From a virus: a stretch of 41,735 nucleotides of DNA. Every line of letters starts with the position of its first letter. Within the stretch, counting starts at the first letter, position 1. Both the position numbers and the translations under genes were made by a program. The stretch covers positions 1-41,735 of IMG/VR virus record IMGVR_UViG_3300042923_000189; one strand, 5' to 3'. The notes beneath the pieces were generated by a model that made no database searches, had not been told where the DNA came from, and saw nothing but the letters and a program-made list of their open reading frames with translations. Shown piece after piece: positions 26,528-41,735 of this stretch.

Positions 26528-27124
26528 TTATTTTTCTTGTATCATCGCTTCAAGTTTCTTTTTAACATCATCGAGTTTGGCTTGTTTATCTTCGTCAACT
26601 TTGTCTGTAATAATAAATTCTGCATCTGGGGTAAGTATATGACCCCTATTTGTTACACCGGTATCCAACTCGTTTTCTTCACAGGCCTCAGCGATGGTAC
26701 GAAAGGTTTCATAATATTCTGGCGAACAATAGTATTCGTCATTTATTTCAACAACATTTCCGTCGATAATACTTTGCATAAGGTTCATTATGTCGTCCGT
26801 GGTATAGCGCACCCACTCAGTATAATCCTCATTAACCGTAACATAACACTTGAAATTTTTGTTACCTGATTTAGCAGTTACTGTAGCCTTACCGCCGTTT
26901 ATCGCAATCAGTGATCCATTCTTATTAACAGTGATAATATTTTTGTTATTACTGGACCACTTTACATTTTTATATTTGCTTGGCAATTTTAGTGTGCATT
27001 TCTTTCCCTCGTCAATTGCTATCTTCTTATTATCTACAATATCATATGTCTTAGTTGCTCCCATAGCCGAAACAGGAATAAACAACATATATAATAATAA
27101 AATCAAAACGGATAACCTTCTCAT
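26528..27124 (-). CDS. Secreted Ig-like (BIG2-type) cargo protein
   Basis: I choose ATG 27124, since AGGAGG lies just upstream on its strand. The ~198-residue protein has a clear signal peptide (MRRLSVLILLLYMLFIPVSA) and a following bacterial Ig-like 2 domain (KCTLKLPSKYKNVKWSSNN, VNKNGSLIAINGGKATVTAK, residues ~35-100). The C-terminal half is acidic and unassigned. It is transcribed leftward, just past the lysis module, where phages carry lysogenic-conversion genes. It probably acts at the outer surface of the lysogen. It directly follows an HTH gene in the same operon. Confidence 0.8.
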   Translation of the reverse strand: MRRLSVLILLLYMLFIPVSAMGATKTYDIVDNKKIAIDEGKKCTLKLPSKYKNVKWSSNNKNIITVNKNGSLIAINGGKATVTAKSGNKNFKCYVTVNEDYTEWVRYTTDDIMNLMQSIIDGNVVEINDEYYCSPEYYETFRTIAEACEENELDTGVTNRGHILTPDAEFIITDKVDEDKQAKLDDVKKKLEAMIQEK

Positions 27125-27125
27125 A

Positions 27126-27323
27126 TTACCTCCTAATTTCAACCAAGTCGCCTATATCGCATTTAAAATATTCTGCGAATCTCTCAAGCGATCGCAAGGT
27201 TATGTAGTCATTCTTATTTATCTTGGTAATTACATCGTTTGATATTCCGGTTGCCTCTTGAATGTCCTTCCATTTTAATTCACTATCTATTACCTTTTCT
27301 CTCAATTTCCTATACGTTACCAT
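27126..27323 (-). CDS. Cro/C1-type HTH regulator of cargo operon (65 aa)
   Basis: I start it at ATG 27323 (MVTYRKLREKVIDSEL), after GGGGGG on its strand, instead of a longer Met at 27353. It is a single small HTH domain of the HTH_26/YozG kind (KWKDIQEATGISNDVITKINKNDYITLRSLERFAEYF, residues ~15-52) with the GDLVEI end. It sits upstream of the secreted Ig-like gene with a promoter-embedded dyad, so it likely represses its own operon. Similar proteins in Firmicutes often act as single-domain autoregulators. Confidence 0.82.
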   Translation of the reverse strand: MVTYRKLREKVIDSELKWKDIQEATGISNDVITKINKNDYITLRSLERFAEYFKCDIGDLVEIRR

Positions 27324-27353
27324 ATGCAACCCCCCAAACGAAAAGATATACAT

Positions 27354-27393: not shown

Positions 27394-27508
27394 AAAATCA
27401 GAAAAACAACTGTAAAAAGATTAAAAACTCTGAAAACAGCGGAAACAAGTACAAGCCTACGCCATATAGTATTAACAAAGATAAAAAAGTTTAAACACAC
27501 CACATAAA
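27394..27508 (+). other. Candidate parC centromere: phased A-tracts
   Basis: A-tracts centred near 27396, 27404, 27416, 27425, 27435 and 27444 recur roughly every 9-10 bases, and more lie at 27478, 27486, 27494 and 27507. Such phasing gives bent DNA. It lies directly upstream of the ParM-like gene, the normal place of a type II partition centromere. No conserved ParR-box sequence is asserted. Confidence 0.5.
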
Positions 27509-27538
27509 CAAAATTAAAATTGTTTAAGGAGGGATTGC

Positions 27539-28417
27539 ATGTTAGGTATTGACAAGGGAACTACATATACCAAGACCGATCAGAAGATTTGCATTAAGAG
27601 CACCATAAGAGAGTACCAGGAGAGCGACATCTCACTGCAGAACGATAAGCTGATTCTCGAGATGGAGAACAAGAAATGGGTGATTGGCGAGAAAGGGAAT
27701 TATTCAACTGATCTAATGAAATCTCAGCACTATAATACAAAAGCTCTCGTACTAACAGCTATAGCACAAAGTACTACGGATGAATGTATTATCACTGACA
27801 TTGTGACAGGGTTGCCGATCGCACTGTATTCCGGCCAGAAACAAATAATGAAGAATTTATTCCAAGATACAAATAATGAGATCCGGATCAACGGAATTAG
27901 AAAAAGGATACGTATAAGAAACGCAGAAGTTTTTCCCGAAGCTGCAGGAGCTTTTTATTCTCAGAACGAGTTTACAGATGCATTAATAATCGACGTAGGT
28001 GGTCTTAGTATTGACACGGCGCAGTTTAAGGGCGGCAAACTGATTAAGTACTCAACTTATTCGATGGGTATGATGAAGCTGTTTTCAAAAATTGCAAACA
28101 AAGTTAACTCGGAACATGATTTATCTCTTACAGAGTGGGATATTGAAGATCTGCTAAAAGACGGATTATTTATATACGGAAAGCAAGTCGATATCGGAGC
28201 TGAAAGGATAATCATTGAGCACGCAAAGGAAATAATCGAAAGGCTTTCTTTAGAATACGATCTAAAAAGTCTAAAGAATATACTTATCACCGGAGGCCCG
28301 GCTGATTGGATAAGTAAGTATCTAGCCAAATATATTCCACAACTTCGAACAATGAAAAACAATCAATATAGCAATGCAATAGGATACAGCAATATCGGGA
28401 GGGTGATATTCGGGTGA
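27539..28417 (+). CDS. parM: ParM-like actin-family segregation ATPase
   Basis: The 292-residue protein has the actin-fold nucleotide motifs: phosphate-1 loop (GIDKGTTYTK, residues 3-12), phosphate-2 loop (IIDVGGLSID, ~150) and adenosine motif (ILITGGPADW, ~250). An AAGGAGGG ribosome binding site precedes ATG 27539. It polymerises into filaments that push apart DNA copies held by ParR. The length is in the range of ParM and Alp proteins. It overlaps the ParR-like gene by four bases, giving a compact parMR operon behind the candidate centromere. Confidence 0.88.
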   Translation: MLGIDKGTTYTKTDQKICIKSTIREYQESDISLQNDKLILEMENKKWVIGEKGNYSTDLMKSQHYNTKALVLTAIAQSTTDECIITDIVTGLPIALYSGQKQIMKNLFQDTNNEIRINGIRKRIRIRNAEVFPEAAGAFYSQNEFTDALIIDVGGLSIDTAQFKGGKLIKYSTYSMGMMKLFSKIANKVNSEHDLSLTEWDIEDLLKDGLFIYGKQVDIGAERIIIEHAKEIIERLSLEYDLKSLKNILITGGPADWISKYLAKYIPQLRTMKNNQYSNAIGYSNIGRVIFG

Positions 28418-28665
28418 GGAAAACAAAGGGATTCTCATATGATCCAGAAATAGATAAGGATGTGATAAATCATATCGATAGCCAGCAGAATGGAAGCCAA
28501 TATGTTTGGGGACTTGTGAGAGCAGATATGTCAGAGAACAGCATTGAGAACATTGTAAACAGACAGATAAAAAAATACCTGCAGGATCACGAAATCACTG
28601 CAGGCTCTAAAGAAAAGGATATTAAACTTGATGCAAACGAGATTAAAAACATACTCAATCTATAG
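28414..28665 (+). CDS. parR: ParR-like centromere-binding protein (83 aa)
   Basis: A GTG start overlaps the ParM stop (GTGA), with GGGAGGGTGAT upstream. The N-terminal half (KTKGFSYDPEIDKDVINHID, then QNGSQYVWGLVRADM) has the ribbon-helix-helix-like pattern of ParR-type proteins: one short strand, then two helices, with a Lys/Asp-rich C terminus that would contact ParM. Position directly after ParM supports this. A 230-base AT-rich gap without an apparent gene follows. Confidence 0.75.
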   Translation: MRKTKGFSYDPEIDKDVINHIDSQQNGSQYVWGLVRADMSENSIENIVNRQIKKYLQDHEITAGSKEKDIKLDANEIKNILNL

Positions 28666-28894: not shown

Positions 28895-29110
28895 ATGAAT
28901 TTTGATGAAATTGGTAAAATGGTTTTTAATGCTTTGATTAATGCAGGCTATTGGGTAATCGCTATCATTACACTTAAAGAAGTTCTTTCTTGTGGATCCA
29001 GAAGAGATATTGAAGGCATTATTAAATCGATCTTAGGCGGAGTAGTAAGCTATGCTGCATTGTATTTCATTACCGATATGCTCGACAAAGTAAAGGATGT
29101 GATGGATTGA
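28895..29110 (+). CDS. Two-pass small membrane protein, VirB2/TrbC-like (71 aa)
   Basis: ATG 28895 follows AAAGGATG. The protein has two hydrophobic segments (residues ~17-33, GYWVIAIITLKEV, and ~44-60, ILGGVVSYAALYFITDM) separated by a short charged loop (CGSRRDIEG). Size and topology match pilin-like VirB2/TrbC or Maff2-type proteins found in Firmicutes conjugative elements. It is the first gene of a tightly overlapping trio with another small membrane protein and a VirB4-like ATPase. The 230 bases upstream contain a possible TTGAAA -35, but no convincing -10. Confidence 0.6.
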   Translation: MNFDEIGKMVFNALINAGYWVIAIITLKEVLSCGSRRDIEGIIKSILGGVVSYAALYFITDMLDKVKDVMD

Positions 29111-29370
29111 TGTATTTAAAAACTGAATTAATTGGTGGTTGGACCGGTGATCAGCTCGATCAGCTCAAAGATAGTATTGCAAGCGGTATTTATGAAGGGT
29201 TTGTAAAATGCATGGATGTAATTTGTAACTTTGTTTTTTGGGGATCCAAGATTGGTATATTGTGCTGCGCAATAGTTTTTATAGCAAGCAAAGATCAGAA
29301 GGCTGTATCAACGGCGGTTAAGCTTGCTCTTATATATCTTATAACTGCGGTGGTGAGTGGCCAATTATGA
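29110..29370 (+). CDS. Second small membrane protein of the T4SS-like trio (86 aa)
   Basis: ATG 29110 overlaps the upstream TGA (TGATG). There are two hydrophobic segments (residues ~44-61, FVFWGSKIGILCCAIVF, and ~68-82, VKLALIYLITAVVSG). An amphipathic N-terminal part precedes them (WTGDQLDQLKDSIASGIYEG), as in small accessory channel proteins of Gram-positive conjugation systems. The stop overlaps the start of the ATPase gene in an ATGA. Family identity is not certain. Confidence 0.6.
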   Translation: MYLKTELIGGWTGDQLDQLKDSIASGIYEGFVKCMDVICNFVFWGSKIGILCCAIVFIASKDQKAVSTAVKLALIYLITAVVSGQL

Positions 29371-31637
29371 AAAAGCTTTCAATGCCGGTATCTAAATATT
29401 TTGAATTTAAGCAGCCCAAATACATATATCTGAAGCTTACGCCTTCCACGTCAATAAGAAATTACAGCACTGATAACCTTCTTAAGTTAATTGCATCCCT
29501 GTATAGAAGCTTCAGCCAACAGATAAGCATAATAAATAAAAAGATGTTTTTTGAATGCTCCGCAAAGGTTTCGTTCTATATCTACATGGAAAAGCATCGT
29601 GTTGAATTCTTCTTTATTGTGCCCGAGGTACACTATTCATTGTTTAAAGATAAATTAACAGATACATGGAGCAATAAGATAACAATAAGTATTGTGTCCG
29701 AAATACCTTTGTTTAGTCATGGATGTGTAAAATATTATATGGATTATAAAAAAGAGGATCCTATGAGTCTTGTGACAGATAAAAGGAACAATGCATTGCT
29801 TGCGTCTGAGCTTGGCACTCTATACGCAATGGAGGATGGAGACAAAGCAGGTGTGATTTTTAATTTTATTCCGATGGATCAACATAAATGGAAAGCAGAT
29901 TTTGAAAATACTATTAAGAGACTGAAGAATGATATGCCGATAAACAAGAACAAAATCAATTTTTGGGTATTATTATCATGGGCGATAGGGTTGGTAGTCA
30001 AAGCAATGGAGATAGGGCTTGAAAGCTTGAGCATAGGAGAATCCGATGTTAAGAGCGTAGGCGAATTTACAATAACTGATGATACCAGAAATAAAAAGAG
30101 CAGCGTAGTCGTGGGAACGCAGATCATTTGCCTTAGCGAGAGCGATAATAAACTACGCGAATATAATACTGCCAAATCACTGTGTCATAGCTTTCAATGC
30201 CTTACATCAAACGATAATGAGCTGATCGGGAGAAGATTGCGCACCAAAGAATTAAGCATTCTAAGCACAACAATCAGCAAGGCTGCAGTACTGAAGATGT
30301 CACCGAGAGAAACACAGCACTTCATATCGCTTCCCGGCCTGGATCTCCTAGAGGAGCACAAGATTATTGACCGTCTGGAAGTATTGGAGCATGAGGTACC
30401 GGGAGAATTAAAGACCGGCATTATAAGTCTAGGCGATACCACTTACAAAGGAGATCCATACAGGGCCTACCTTCCGACCACGAAGAATGAGCGATGTCTC
30501 ACAGTGGTTCTTATAGGTCCAACCAGATCAGGAAAAACCACCGCAATCAGCAACTTTTCAAACGATGCCAGGAATGGCGGTGAGTGTACAATTATTTTCG
30601 ATTTTTGCGGTAACTGCGAGCTCTCTGATAGTGTCAATAAGGATGTTGGCAATGTACTCAATATTGATTGCAGCGACCTTAAGCAACTTCAGGGCATGGG
30701 TTACAACGAAGCTAATCACCACGAAACCGATCCGATAAAACAATATGAAAACGCAAAGATCCAGGCATCGAACTTACTTGCGCTTATCGATGCAGTAAAC
30801 AGTGAAGACAGGGACCTTAAAGCGAAGATGAATAAGTACTTAAGCGCTGCAGCTCTCCTGGTATTCATAAGTAACGGAAAGATAAAGGATGTGTTTGGAG
30901 TCCTTCAGGATCACCGGTTAAGATGGGATTATATCAATGCTGTTCCAAGCAATCAAATGGAGTATATGGCTGAATACATAGATACTATGAAGGAGATTGA
31001 CGATACTAAGCAAGGCGAGGTTATTGGAACTAAATATAACACTGCTATTGGTGGTATTATGGATCGTGTTGGGCAGTTAAAGCAAAACACTTACATGGAG
31101 CTGATGCTTAAAAAGGACTGCAAGAATAACTTTAACTTAATCGATGAGATGCAGAACAATCAGATCATTTGTTTCCGGATGCCGGAGCACATGTTTAGTA
31201 CGCAGGCTGAGAAAGATGCTTATTGCACTTATTGGATGACGAAGATATGGCTTGCTCTTAAATTCCGGAAGGCCTATATTCCGGATGCTCAGCATATTAA
31301 AGTTAATGTTATCGTTGATGAGCTTTCCCAAGTGCCGCACTGTCAAGAGTTTATCCGGAGTAAGCTCAGTCAGATGGCGAAGTTTAACTGTAAAATGATT
31401 ATTAGTTGCCATTATCTGAATCAGATCAAGATTATCCGGGAAGAATTAAAGAGTGCAAACAGTAGTTACATGCTAATATCTGGATGCGATAAGGAGAATT
31501 ACAAGGAGTTGAAGGAGGAGCTGGCGCCTTACTCGGTCGATGATCTCCTGAGACTTAAGAAGTATCACAGCCTTAATCTGATTAAGCTTCCTGACGGATA
31601 TGTTACGTTTGTCACCAAGTTACCAAAACCGCTATAA
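29367..31637 (+). CDS. VirB4/HerA-like conjugation ATPase
   Basis: The 756-residue protein has an N-terminal ~340-residue beta/alpha domain (including YIYLKLTPSTSIRNYS and FFFIVPEVHYSLF) as seen in Gram-positive VirB4-like proteins. MSPRETQHFISLPG then precedes a RecA-like ATPase with Walker A about residue 384 (GPTRSGKTT) and Walker B about residue 650 (VIVDELSQV), and a MIISCHYLNQ segment after it. Such proteins drive conjugative secretion or DNA translocation. It is coupled to two small membrane genes and lies after parMR. No relaxase is in the window. A HerA-like defence function is a possible alternative. Confidence 0.75.
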   Translation: MKKLSMPVSKYFEFKQPKYIYLKLTPSTSIRNYSTDNLLKLIASLYRSFSQQISIINKKMFFECSAKVSFYIYMEKHRVEFFFIVPEVHYSLFKDKLTDTWSNKITISIVSEIPLFSHGCVKYYMDYKKEDPMSLVTDKRNNALLASELGTLYAMEDGDKAGVIFNFIPMDQHKWKADFENTIKRLKNDMPINKNKINFWVLLSWAIGLVVKAMEIGLESLSIGESDVKSVGEFTITDDTRNKKSSVVVGTQIICLSESDNKLREYNTAKSLCHSFQCLTSNDNELIGRRLRTKELSILSTTISKAAVLKMSPRETQHFISLPGLDLLEEHKIIDRLEVLEHEVPGELKTGIISLGDTTYKGDPYRAYLPTTKNERCLTVVLIGPTRSGKTTAISNFSNDARNGGECTIIFDFCGNCELSDSVNKDVGNVLNIDCSDLKQLQGMGYNEANHHETDPIKQYENAKIQASNLLALIDAVNSEDRDLKAKMNKYLSAAALLVFISNGKIKDVFGVLQDHRLRWDYINAVPSNQMEYMAEYIDTMKEIDDTKQGEVIGTKYNTAIGGIMDRVGQLKQNTYMELMLKKDCKNNFNLIDEMQNNQIICFRMPEHMFSTQAEKDAYCTYWMTKIWLALKFRKAYIPDAQHIKVNVIVDELSQVPHCQEFIRSKLSQMAKFNCKMIISCHYLNQIKIIREELKSANSSYMLISGCDKENYKELKEELAPYSVDDLLRLKKYHSLNLIKLPDGYVTFVTKLPKPL

Positions 31638-33154: not shown

Positions 33155-34387
33155 CTATATTGCTTTAAACATTTTTTTACGTTCCTCTCGGGTGAGAGTC
33201 TTTTCTTCTGTGGTGGTAGTCTTCTCAGGTTTGACATTTGGCTTGATGGAATTATTAATTTTATTGGCTGCTTCTTCATCCATGTCTTTTAATACATGCT
33301 GATAAACTTCTCTCAGTGTAGACACTGTAGAATGCCCAAGACGCTCCGCAGCAACTTTGTCCGATATATTTCCTCTCAACATCACAACTGCATTGTAATG
33401 CCTCAGGTCGTGTAAACGAATATGCGGAAGATTGTACTTGTCCAACAAATAATTAAATCTCTGAGAAAGAGATTTCGGTTTCCACCGGGTGACAACATTG
33501 GTATCTGAACCCGGCTTTCCACAAGATACATAATGTCTTTGTAATGTTTCGATGACATATTCAGGGGCTGATATGGTTCTCTTGCTTGTTTCGTTCTTGG
33601 GATCCTTCTCGATATTACTTGTAAAGTTTACCATGGTCTGTTCTATGGTGATAGTTTTTGCCTTGAAGTCTACATTTTCCCATCGCAATCCGAGAATTTC
33701 GCCACGCCTTAATCCTGATCCGGCCCCCAGGATGATCGGAACTTCTTCATCTTTTCCATGAACAAAATCAAGTAATTTAAGAAACTGGTCTTTGTTATAT
33801 ACAACAGGTCTATATTTTACCATAGGAGACAACTCTACTCCATCGGTCGGGTTAGTCCTGATTTTGCCATTAATCATCGCATAGTGTAGTGCAGCTTTAA
33901 GAAATTTATTAAGCTTAATAACAGTGTTGATGCTGAGCTTCGGCATTGTTTGGGTGACAATCTTGTCGCCATGCTTAACTTTATGCTCCCTCTCATTAGA
34001 TAGTTTGAAATTATAAAACGTATCCAGCGTTATGGTTTTTATATCTTTGAGTTTCGTATTACCAAAATAAGGCTCAAAATGCACATCAATATACATTTTG
34101 AATAGTTCTGCGGTAGTCTTTTCCCACTTTGCCTTGTCTGGGCGTTTTGATTTTGGGTCCCACATATCATATCCGGCTCTTATCCGGTGATATGATTTCA
34201 AAAACGCAATCAATGTATCTTTGTTCGGAGGAGTATACTGCCCGGTTCGAATCTCAAATAAAATCTCACCTGCTTTTTCAATAACTTCTTTTTCTGACCA
34301 TCCGTAGATGAGTTTTGGTCTACTCGCTCCAATATCAACAGGATATACCCATCTACCATCTGAATTTCTCTGATAAGGTTTTCCCAT
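33155..34387 (-). CDS. int: Tyrosine integrase
   Basis: The start at 34387 follows AGGAGGTAATTGT on its strand (an upstream Met at 34411 lacks a ribosome binding site). The 410-residue protein has an N-terminal Arm-DNA-binding domain (AP2-like, MGKPYQRNSDGRWVYPVDIG), a core-binding SAM-like domain (~70-190), and a catalytic domain with GLRRGEILGLRW (first Arg), LHDLRH (HxxR), GHSTVSTLREVYQHV (His and the Tyr nucleophile). It mediates integration and excision at the tRNA-derived att site. It starts just after the stop of the repressor gene, so the two are one leftward operon. Confidence 0.95.
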   Translation of the reverse strand: MGKPYQRNSDGRWVYPVDIGASRPKLIYGWSEKEVIEKAGEILFEIRTGQYTPPNKDTLIAFLKSYHRIRAGYDMWDPKSKRPDKAKWEKTTAELFKMYIDVHFEPYFGNTKLKDIKTITLDTFYNFKLSNEREHKVKHGDKIVTQTMPKLSINTVIKLNKFLKAALHYAMINGKIRTNPTDGVELSPMVKYRPVVYNKDQFLKLLDFVHGKDEEVPIILGAGSGLRRGEILGLRWENVDFKAKTITIEQTMVNFTSNIEKDPKNETSKRTISAPEYVIETLQRHYVSCGKPGSDTNVVTRWKPKSLSQRFNYLLDKYNLPHIRLHDLRHYNAVVMLRGNISDKVAAERLGHSTVSTLREVYQHVLKDMDEEAANKINNSIKPNVKPEKTTTTEEKTLTREERKKMFKAI

Positions 34388-34391
34388 ACAA

Positions 34392-34709
34392 TTACCTCCT
34401 ATATAAATCAATCATCTGGTCAAGCTTCTCGGGAGATACGTCTTCCTTGATAGCTTTATCGATCACGCTTATATATTCTTTTTTGTTAGCAAACTGTATA
34501 GTGCTAAAATCTCCGTTGCCCGCAAGCCAATCCAGCGTAACGCCAAAATAATCAGCTAAGCTTATCAATGCCGATAATCCAGGCTCAGACTTCCCATGCT
34601 CATATCTCCATATTAATGATTTTGTGCTGTCAACTGCTTCAGCGAGTGTTTCATATGATAGCTCTTTCCTTGTTCTTAACATATTCAGCCTTTTCGCAAA
34701 CTCATTCAT
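34392..34709 (-). CDS. CI-like repressor (105 aa), HTH only
   Basis: I start at ATG 34709; GAGG lies ten bases upstream on its strand. The HTH is clear (RKELSYETLAEAVDSTKSLIWRYEHGKSEPGLSALISLADYF, residues ~13-52), and the C terminus is a short helical tail (DVSPEKLDQMIDLYRR) without an S24/LexA peptidase. It should keep the lysogenic state by binding the operators near 34825 and 35146. With no cleavable domain, it cannot respond to RecA directly. Its stop lies four bases from the integrase start. Confidence 0.85.
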   Translation of the reverse strand: MNEFAKRLNMLRTRKELSYETLAEAVDSTKSLIWRYEHGKSEPGLSALISLADYFGVTLDWLAGNGDFSTIQFANKKEYISVIDKAIKEDVSPEKLDQMIDLYRR

Positions 34710-36208: not shown

Positions 36209-36601
36209 ATGGCAAGAGGAATCGTAAGAAAGATTGATGATTTAGGGAGGGTAACCATCCCGATCGAATACAGAAGAGCTATAACCATTGGGACAGGGGA
36301 TGCACTTGACCTTTATATCATGGACAAGGTTATTCACCTTAAGAAGGGTAAAGGCAGAAAGCTTGATGCGCTCGGCAGATATACCTTACCGATTGAGGTG
36401 CGCAGGTCACTCAGATTTGAGCTGAATGAATTAGTTGATATCTATGTTGATGGCGATGAAATTTGTATCAAGAGAGAAACGCTGCAGTGTGTTATCTGTG
36501 GCTCAGAAGATGAAACTCAGCTTCACGAAGTCAATAGGGTATTGATCTGTAAGAGCTGCGCTCTGGCCGTGACTGACATGGTTATGGAGGCAGGTCTATG
36601 A
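36209..36601 (+). CDS. AbrB-type regulator with tandem SpoVT domains and zinc ribbon
   Basis: ATG 36209 follows CGGAGGA. Two swapped-hairpin AbrB-like segments are seen: residues ~1-45 (MARGIVRKIDDLGRVTIPIEYRRAI) and ~48-88 (GRKLDALGRYTLPIEVRRSL). A zinc-ribbon-like tail follows with CVIC and CKSC. The protein should dimerise and bind DNA broadly. It is in the early operon, so likely acts as a transcriptional switch. Tandem AbrB halves in one chain plus zinc ribbon is unusual. The stop overlaps the next ATG. Confidence 0.85.
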   Translation: MARGIVRKIDDLGRVTIPIEYRRAITIGTGDALDLYIMDKVIHLKKGKGRKLDALGRYTLPIEVRRSLRFELNELVDIYVDGDEICIKRETLQCVICGSEDETQLHEVNRVLICKSCALAVTDMVMEAGL

Positions 36602-40321: not shown

Positions 40322-40818
40322 CAATAGAAGAAATTGAAGAAAGAAAACAGTATCTACTCGCTACCGTCACAGTAACTGATGTTCTCTCTCGATATAGCAT
40401 TCCGGTCAAATGGAAGCGCTGCAGAGGATGGTGCCATGGCGGTAAGGATTTAAATATGAAAGTCTTCCGGGATGGTTGCCACTGCTTCGTTTGTGGTAGA
40501 AGTTTTGATATTTTCGACATTACAATGCACTTTAATAACTGCGATTTTTGGACAGCCTTTGAGCTTCTGGGCGGTACCGAGAAACCAAGCTTTACCGCTC
40601 AGCGCAAGGCTAAGTCAGCTATGAAGGAACGTCAGGATAGAATTATCAAGGATCGCAAGACAAGATCGGAATTGAAGCGAATTCGTGCGTATATTACTGC
40701 TTATCGAGGGCTTATAGCAATATCGGATCCATTCTCTGATATATGGTGCGAAGCTCATAACCAATTACAACTTGAATTATACCATCTTGAATATATGACA
40801 GATGAAGAAAAGAGGTGA
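40318..40818 (+). CDS. CHC2-like zinc-finger primase-associated protein (166 aa)
   Basis: A TTG start overlaps the upstream TGA (40318). The N-terminal ~80 residues look like a primase CHC2 zinc finger: YLLATVTVTDVLSRYSIPV, a CRGWCHG and GCHCFVCG pair, and FDIFDITMHFNNCDFWTAFELL, the helical end of this domain. No TOPRIM catalytic part follows; the remainder is helical and Lys/Arg-rich. It is immediately before the DUF927 helicase, so the two may form a split primase-helicase. Confidence 0.8.
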   Translation: MTIEEIEERKQYLLATVTVTDVLSRYSIPVKWKRCRGWCHGGKDLNMKVFRDGCHCFVCGRSFDIFDITMHFNNCDFWTAFELLGGTEKPSFTAQRKAKSAMKERQDRIIKDRKTRSELKRIRAYITAYRGLIAISDPFSDIWCEAHNQLQLELYHLEYMTDEEKR

Positions 40819-40823
40819 TAACC

Positions 40824-41735
40824 CTGCAAGAAATAGCTAGTTTAACAGCTGATACCATTCTAGGCGATGATGTACTTTGTGAGGTAATGGAGCAACAAGA
40901 CGAAATCTTTAAGGCTAGATTACTATTAACCCTCGAAGAGAGAGCGGATAAGCTTGGTGTAAAAACTAAGTTCACTAAACTGGTGGCTGCGTATAAAAAA
41001 GAAAAACAGAAATTTGATAAAGGGCAGCAATCACCAGGAAGTTTAGAACGGACCACTGAGTTTGATTCCGATTACGGAGAAATGCGATGCGGAAACTGGA
41101 TCGCAAACGACAATGGTATCAGGACCTTTGGTCCCTTCGGTGGTGAAATCCTTGCTTGTTATCATCCGATCATACCCGTTCAAAGACTGATTAACGCAGA
41201 AACACACAGAGAGAAGATAAAGCTGGCATACAAAAAGGGTAACCATTGGAAAGATATCATAATCGATAAAGGAATGATTGCTTCAGCGAATAGAATTGTC
41301 GGGCTGGCAGACTTCGGAATATCAGTCACCTCGGAAAATGCAAGAAATTTGGTCCGTTATTTGTCCGATATCGAAAATTACAATATGGAAAGGATTGAGG
41401 TGCAAGTGTCAACAGGGAAACTCGGTTGGATTGAAAAAGAATTCATGCCGTATGGCAAGGGGATAATATTCGACAATGAAACCAGATTTAAAGATACATA
41501 TGAGAGTATCCATGAGCAGGGATCTTTCGATACATGGATGGATGCTGCTAAAAAAATAAGAAAGTCAGACCGATTTGAACCAAAGATCTACATAGCCGGA
41601 GCTCTGGCAAGTGTTCTGGTAGAACCATTAAATGCCTTACCGTTCGTATTGAACCTCTGGGGTGATGCAGGTAAAGGTAAGACAGTTGCAATTATGTTAG
41701 CTGCTTCGATATGGGCTAATCCATGGGGGAATGAT
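40824..41735 (+). CDS. DUF927-type replication helicase, truncated by window end
   Basis: The frame is open to the window edge. I place the start at CTG 40824, seven bases after AGAGGTGAT; GTG 40815 is the alternative but overlaps its own ribosome binding site. The N-terminal ~130 residues are unassigned (QEIASLTADTILGDDVLCE). The DUF927 domain follows, with the GMIASANRIVGLADFGI segment, LGWIEKEFMPYGKG and a Walker A (GDAGKGKT, around residue 285). The Walker B and C-terminal part are outside the window. It should unwind DNA for phage replication. Confidence 0.85.
   Translation, partial: MQEIASLTADTILGDDVLCEVMEQQDEIFKARLLLTLEERADKLGVKTKFTKLVAAYKKEKQKFDKGQQSPGSLERTTEFDSDYGEMRCGNWIANDNGIRTFGPFGGEILACYHPIIPVQRLINAETHREKIKLAYKKGNHWKDIIIDKGMIASANRIVGLADFGISVTSENARNLVRYLSDIENYNMERIEVQVSTGKLGWIEKEFMPYGKGIIFDNETRFKDTYESIHEQGSFDTWMDAAKKIRKSDRFEPKIYIAGALASVLVEPLNALPFVLNLWGDAGKGKTVAIMLAASIWANPWGND

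Follow-up and report, generated by a model that had tools for sequence, protein, structure and literature searches.

A phage ParM/ParR pair at the front of a five-gene membrane ATPase module

Introduction

ParM, ParR, two small membrane proteins and an ATPase form a five-gene phage module, with the ParM/ParR pair at its front, in the window, which is the whole 41,735-nucleotide stretch of viral DNA analyzed here. A preliminary description of positions 27394–28665 interpreted the pair, together with a bent-DNA candidate centromere and an integrase elsewhere in the record, as a partition system by which the phage can persist as an episome. The three genes located 3' of position 28665, beyond the segment so described, alter this picture. 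A phage ParM by itself does not mean plasmid-like lysogeny, because the module is also present in an integrated prophage of a relative (L003), in chromosomes and in the lytic phage SPO1. We infer instead a coupling between the two halves of the module, and there is about an even chance that the role of the ParM/ParR pair is to move extrachromosomal phage DNA to a membrane ATPase complex encoded by the phage, or to hold it there, and not to maintain a plasmid-like lysogen.

Separately, a ParM/ParR pair has already been published for an integrating element, actins for prophages and a VirB4-like translocon for a phage. New are the recurrence of a module in which segregation cassettes are exchangeable, the occurrence of this module in lytic phages as well as in chromosomes, and a rule that relates the C-terminal tail of ParR to ParM.

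The ParM/ParR pair

The 292-residue product of 27539–28417 (+ strand) is securely identified as a ParM-class actin. It matches Pfam ALP_N (1.2e-18) and MreB-like_C (4.8e-07) and the PHROG family 691, annotated as partition protein (1.5e-52). The AlphaFold2 model of this protein, built on an 18-row alignment, has a pLDDT of 90.6 and a pTM of 0.88, and its top matches in the PDB are ParMs, the first being Cb-cParM (7x54; Z 30.9, rmsd 2.0 over 277 residues); Dh-cParM1 (8x1i) gives a Z of 30.6. Consistently, the sequence profile of the window ParM also recovers 7x54 (2.8e-33). The window thus encodes the ParM-class actin-like ATPase of a type II ParMRC system, and the actin-like ATPase motifs noticed in the preliminary description are confirmed by the ALP_N and PHROG 691 matches and by the structural match to Cb-cParM. 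Judged from the model, the closest structures are the two chromosome-encoded ParMs, Cb-cParM and Dh-cParM1, and because these two solved proteins are its nearest counterparts, the phage ParM may be relevant to the puzzle that chromosome-encoded ParMs pose. In a short ParM subfamily (e.g. L026, L033 and L050), about 40 residues of the window ParM are missing, around residues ~176–246 of the window protein in alignment A3, a part that we take to be actin subdomain IIB.

The gene directly downstream, at 28414–28665 (+ strand), starts with GTG, overlaps the parM stop codon by 4 nucleotides and encodes an 83-residue protein with an acidic C-terminal tail that ends in hydrophobic residues. Its assignment as ParR, a ribbon-helix-helix (RHH) adaptor, is well supported by its position, its pattern and the tail test described below. 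An N-terminal strand-helix-helix pattern, as in RHH proteins, is conserved across 19 ParR homologues (alignment A4), in agreement with the ParR-sized overlapping gene of RHH-like pattern that had been proposed; a type II ParMRC system has a small DNA-binding adaptor at this place, and DNA binding by the window protein is predicted. The Pfam search with the 83-residue protein gave no match. The ParR model, of modest confidence (pLDDT 74, pTM 0.42), places helices at residues 15–23, 27–41, 44–58 and 74–80, and Foldseek with this model found no significant match, the sole ParR among the matches listed having an E-value of 6.7.

Other ParRs have a ParM-binding C-terminal tail, and the structure of ParM with a ParR C-terminal peptide (4a62) is among the PDB matches of the window ParM model. 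ParR-like proteins that adjoin ParM have a tail that is acidic and closes with hydrophobic residues, whereas their relatives at ParM-less loci do not have such a tail. This rule was first noticed on the alignment of 19 homologues, then scored on 31 proteins, and then checked on six fresh phage loci. The first 31 proteins, comprising 14 with ParM that also match the RHH HMM and 17 without ParM, gave p 1.4e-6 for tail net charge, five further ParM-linked ORFs standing outside this value. At the six fresh loci, the tail charges are -1, -3 and -4 with ParM and +2, 0 and +1 without it. Across 42 ParR-like proteins, the tail net charge is negative in 20 of the 22 with ParM, the other two being neutral, and in none of the 20 without ParM. 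The 22 ParM rows omit three of the 25 ParM loci, namely L025 (ParM on the opposite strand), L047 (ParR the same as that of L032) and L121 (ATPase identical to that of L195), and the scoring of ParM-less loci omits those lacking an RHH match as well as repeated RHH sequences. When phylogenetically independent pairs on the tree are compared, 9–10 of 10 agree with the rule and none is opposite to it (sign test, p 0.002–0.004).

These comparisons suggest that the acidic tail is the ParM-binding tail of ParR. Because tail charge follows the presence of ParM, the window ParR very probably works with ParM. The tail rule may also serve as a simple predictor of which ParR-like proteins partner ParM. 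Phage D6E carries two ParR-like proteins, of which the one directly after ParM has an acidic tail and the second, nearer the membrane gene, has a basic tail.

DNA upstream of parM

The 151-bp segment upstream of parM is 71% A+T, a level reached by 1.4% of windows. Six A-tracts at 27394–27446, a candidate for bent DNA, are phased near one helical turn; 0.02–0.05% of the 61-bp windows of the record equal them, and 0.6% of same-length stretches of the record contain a window phased as well. A-tracts every 9–10 bp had been taken as a bent candidate centromere, and the phasing holds at 27394–27446. However, it is not significant over the whole 151-bp segment when compared with shuffles (p 0.31), and none of nine upstream regions of relatives reaches the 5% level, so bent DNA as a conserved centromere was dropped.

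The repeat search proposed in the preliminary description yielded a pair of 26-nt copies at 27469–27494 and 27502–27527, spaced by 33 bp and identical at 19 of 26 positions (p ~0.04), each a candidate site for ParR or a regulator. The pair ends just 5' of the parM ribosome-binding region. The counterpart pair in L003 is stronger, with 23 of 26 positions identical at the same 33-bp spacing, and is equalled in 0 of 200 shuffles. The pair is a candidate parC or operator, and as a parC it is plausible. No iteron array was found 5' of parM in the repeat search of the window, and a classical iteron parC was rejected since that search gave no repeat family there.

A Cro/CI-type HTH gene (27126–27353, - strand; Pfam HTH_26, 3.1e-11) is divergent from parM and is a candidate regulator of the module; of 58 ATPase loci, 40 have HTH-family genes nearby. 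The gene at 26528–27142 (- strand), which lies between parM and the lysis genes, encodes a protein that looks exported and has a Big_2 Ig-like domain, and a similar gene is present in L002.

Membrane proteins and ATPase downstream of ParR

A gap of 229 bp separates parR from three genes that are joined to one another by 4-nt overlaps. The first (28895–29110, + strand) encodes a 71-residue protein with two hydrophobic segments by hydropathy and no Pfam match. It stands where relatives have pilin-like proteins, and in many relatives the start or middle of its counterpart is hydrophobic and leader-like. The second (29107–29370, + strand) encodes an 87-residue protein, again with two hydrophobic segments, whose counterparts in relatives are often fusions of an M23 peptidase with a membrane segment (Peptidase_M23, 2e-26 in L015).

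The third gene (29367–31637, + strand) encodes a 756-residue ATPase that matches Pfam TrwB_AAD_bind in part (2.1e-06) and PHROG 5156 (3.3e-75). The TrwB_AAD_bind match, likewise partial, is found in 7 of 12 ATPase members, and a PDB sequence search with the ATPase profile gave nothing at an E-value of 0.01. Because the Pfam match is partial and the PDB search gave no sequence match, "VirB4-like" is a loose label, and the protein is at most of the VirB4/TrwB/HerA class. As regards the relaxase that belongs to a type IV secretion system (T4SS), family PF03432 is found in none of 13 records (the window and 12 related ones), and Replic_Relax (PF13814) is found in two of the 13, the window not being one of them. 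The SPO1 gene 27.3 (L130:6669–7493), directly after the ATPase gene, encodes a Replic_Relax protein (2.9e-12), and a second such gene is present in the record of L013. Farther downstream in the window, upstream of recombination genes, a protein with two MazE/AbrB-type domains is encoded at 36209–36601.

The location of the module between the lysis genes and the integrase or prophage end would suit a superinfection-exclusion or defense moron, of which the ParM/ParR pair would be the sensor or regulatory part. The ATPase weakly matches the PADLOC model mad8 (2.2e-08), and the module also occurs in chromosomes, where no structural or lysis phage genes were recognized among the few flanking proteins tested at L113 and L127. 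However, the other four module proteins of the window match no PADLOC model, and lytic SPO1 carries the module too, which makes a defense role most unlikely.

Distribution of the module and exchange of its neighbors

Relatives of the window ATPase are found in 37 phage records. A profile search for the ATPase gave 43 loci in viral contigs, and matches in 27 of 348 genomes of one class (around a Paenibacillus) and in 14 of 341 genomes of another, many of these matches being partial or weak. After removal of copies at ≥97% identity, 58 ATPase loci were left, at which the upstream neighbor is ParM in 22, TubZ in two and ParA in one. With six phage records added, the 64 loci comprise 25 with ParM, two with TubZ, one with ParA, 29 with none and seven too short to judge. 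The ParM HMM behind these counts derives from 12 sequences whose loci are all among those counted, and the six added phage records took no part in building it. The loci come from a relative search and a profile search and so are no random sample, and the ORFs matched in L117 and L129 are doubtful.

The order ParM, ParR, membrane genes and ATPase recurs in L002, L003, D6E, SPO1 and vB_BboS-125, and in MMB025 with a split parM. SPO1 is a lytic phage; its gp27.9 matches ALP_N (2.2e-27) and its gp27.4 matches PHROG 5156. The parM gene is split into two ORFs both in the Alicyclobacillus phage MMB025 (L195:1228–2047) and in chromosomal L121, whose ATPases are identical.

On the best tree of the 64 ATPases, a quick tree with long branches, ParM switches between present and absent 16 times, and at least 12 times on starred branches. 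In the tight group of L024, L025, L027 and L030, the neighbor is ParM in L024, an oppositely oriented ParM in L025 and ParA in L030, and L027 was not judged. Thus, different kinds of segregation cassette have repeatedly been placed beside the same ATPase. The ParA-type ATPase gene of L030 (2571–3359), which runs in the opposite direction, lies 5' of an ATPase module near-identical to ParM-carrying modules. TubZ takes the place of ParM 5' of the membrane-ATPase module in two large phage-like records (L040:5574–6940 and L042:5867–6946), and the L040 protein matches Pfam Tubulin (1.5e-14).

At the chromosomal loci, the surroundings of the module vary. L116 lies in a 2.15-Mb contig and adjoins endolysin and tail genes. 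L127 has a reverse transcriptase nearby, and Pfam confirms HlyD_2 and Ala_racemase_N; its neighbors are presumably ylm/divIVA-type genes. L113 is adjoined by Fic and collagen-like genes, and the collagen-like protein weakly matches a tail fiber. The Fic-family gene (L113:4616–5722; PADLOC SoFic, 1.4e-52) follows the ATPase gene at a distance of about 250 nt.

ParMs of the window family mostly occur without the ATPase. Among the best 30 ParM places in 348 Bacilli genomes, three fall in an ATPase module, and in 27 of the same 30 an RHH-HMM match begins at most 60 nt from the end of ParM. Stand-alone chromosomal operons of ParM and an RHH protein (L168–L192) are present in many Bacilli genomes, and SGLPFG closes many of their ParR tails. 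As for phages, 102 records contain ParM, and many of these come from lytic Bacillus phages whose records are not among the ATPase matches listed. These phage records would fit a ParM/ParR pair that acted like AlpC or PhuZ, moving or clustering replicating phage DNA after induction or infection, with the ATPase module as an unrelated neighbor, and AlpA/AlpC is described as acting in this way in the integrated prophage CGP3 (PMC4446434). However, the recurrence of one gene order in divergent phages and the many ParM changes beside one ATPase are unexpected from chance neighborhood, so that a positioning role independent of the ATPase is rather unlikely.

Integration and episomal persistence

The same record encodes a tyrosine integrase (33155–34411, - strand; Pfam Phage_integrase, 4.1e-17; PHROG 1, 7.2e-54) and shows no end overlap. 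It ends inside a DUF927 gene (40815–41735), so that part of the phage genome is missing. Pfam showed no plasmid replication initiator among the window proteins scanned, which are a subset of the ORFs of this incomplete record. The ParM of L003 is 57% identical to that of the window and belongs to the same module in an integrated prophage. At one end, just past the module and one HTH gene, the L003 record encodes the last 249 residues of a T2SSE-type host ATPase, and a serine recombinase lies at the other end. The prophage of this relative apparently interrupts a T2SSE/PilB-type host gene at its P-loop codons (L197:1–750, corresponding to L003:14782–15531).

Plasmid-type partition would keep the prophage episomal, the integrase providing an alternative lifestyle; in a milder form, it would stabilize a transient excised form in the manner of srpMRC. 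The window does have the right kind of gene pair, a candidate parC and an integrase, srpMRC is reported to stabilize an integrating element (PMC4489591), and plasmid prophages that carry ParM have been described (PMC8026635). However, a study of plasmid prophages states that partition proteins alone do not prove plasmid replication of a phage (PMC8026635), and the same module is found in lytic SPO1, in the integrated prophage of the near relative L003 and in chromosomal L113 and L127, while the Pfam-scanned subset of window proteins contains no replication initiator. Plasmid-type partition, in either form, is thus distinctly unlikely. From the preliminary description, the genuine ParM/ParR pair, the plausible parC and the tyrosine integrase in the same record stand; persistence as an episome is not supported, nor is the combination of integrase and ParMR as a sign of a dual lifestyle, the module being common to integrated, lytic and chromosomal settings.

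A phage ParM has often been taken as a mark of plasmid-like lysogeny. Such a reading is unsafe, because the membrane ATPase module has this cassette beside it in phages both lytic and temperate, and in chromosomes as well.

Proposed mechanism of the module

In the mechanism that we propose for the coupled module, ParR would bind phage DNA just 5' of parM, as expected by homology, and its acidic C-terminal tail would contact ParM, as the comparison of tails strongly suggests. By homology, ParM filaments would push, separate or hold copies of phage DNA. Together with the ATPase, the two membrane proteins probably make a membrane complex, by analogy with the T4SS and with the translocon proposed for SPP1. 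The ParM/ParR arm would then most likely carry extrachromosomal phage DNA to this complex, or keep the DNA near the membrane, after infection or excision. That a filament arm may bring phage DNA to a membrane ATPase is suggested by analogy, because the ParM of plasmid R1 binds TraC and TraD and a translocon has been proposed in SPP1.

Several observations argue against a coupling between the ParM/ParR pair and the ATPase. No partition NTPase was found at 29 of 57 judged ATPase loci, and ParMs of the window family mostly lack the ATPase. The search for promoter and terminator patterns gave 8 promoter-like sites, as compared with 8.8 expected, and no terminators; given the 229-bp gap between parR and the membrane genes and the lack of any above-chance pattern, a single transcript is a presumption. 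The absence of a PF03432 relaxase from the 13 records, the loose class of the ATPase and the lack of conservation of the A-tracts point in the same direction.

A bolder form of the coupling would be that exchangeable ParM, TubZ and ParA cassettes of Gram-positive phages feed DNA to a conjugation-like membrane ATPase, which would act as a machine for DNA export or membrane docking and perhaps for virion-free passage of DNA from cell to cell; we regard this as a speculative and very unlikely extension. The module provides a testable lead to the role of phage-encoded actins and to that of the TrwB/VirB4-like ATPases in SPP1- and SPO1-type phages.

Comparison with known systems

In Cb-cParM and Dh-cParM1, which are the best structural matches, ParM is followed by a ParR-like gene as in the window (PMC12270681). 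The main text of that paper mentions neither phage, integrase, secretion nor VirB4 (PMC12270681), whereas the window ParM is encoded by a phage beside a membrane ATPase module.

AlpA/AlpC of CGP3 resembles the window pair in consisting of an actin-like protein and a DNA adaptor, and CGP3 is an integrated prophage (PMC4446434). It differs in having 24 alpS repeats, and the available text of that paper mentions no membrane ATPase module (PMC4446434). The srpMRC system of the SXT/R391 ICEs likewise has a ParM/ParR-type pair and an integrase in the same element, and it also has a link to conjugation (PMC4489591). In contrast to the window, it belongs to a conjugative element rather than a phage and forms one operon with int (PMC4489591).

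The SPP1 genes gp31–gp31.1–gp31.2–gp32 have been proposed to encode a membrane translocon (PMC6316719). Like the window, SPP1 combines early membrane proteins with a TrwB/VirB4/FtsK-like ATPase, and these genes are conserved in GBK2 (PMC6316719). The window ATPase profile finds GBK2, which has an RHH-HMM match and no ParM match. SPP1 differs from the window in that no ParM is described in the available text (PMC6316719). In the open-licence literature, no description of a phage module combining ParM with a VirB4-like ATPase was found, and the nearest is the remark on the SPP1 translocon (PMC6316719).

Plasmid R1 differs from the window in that it is fully conjugative and has both a relaxase and the complete set of T4SS genes (PMC4949242). 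However, as in the system proposed for the window, the ParM of R1 ParMRC works beside a VirB4-like ATPase, and in R1 it also binds this VirB4-like protein, TraC, together with the coupling protein TraD, and aids conjugation (PMC4949242).
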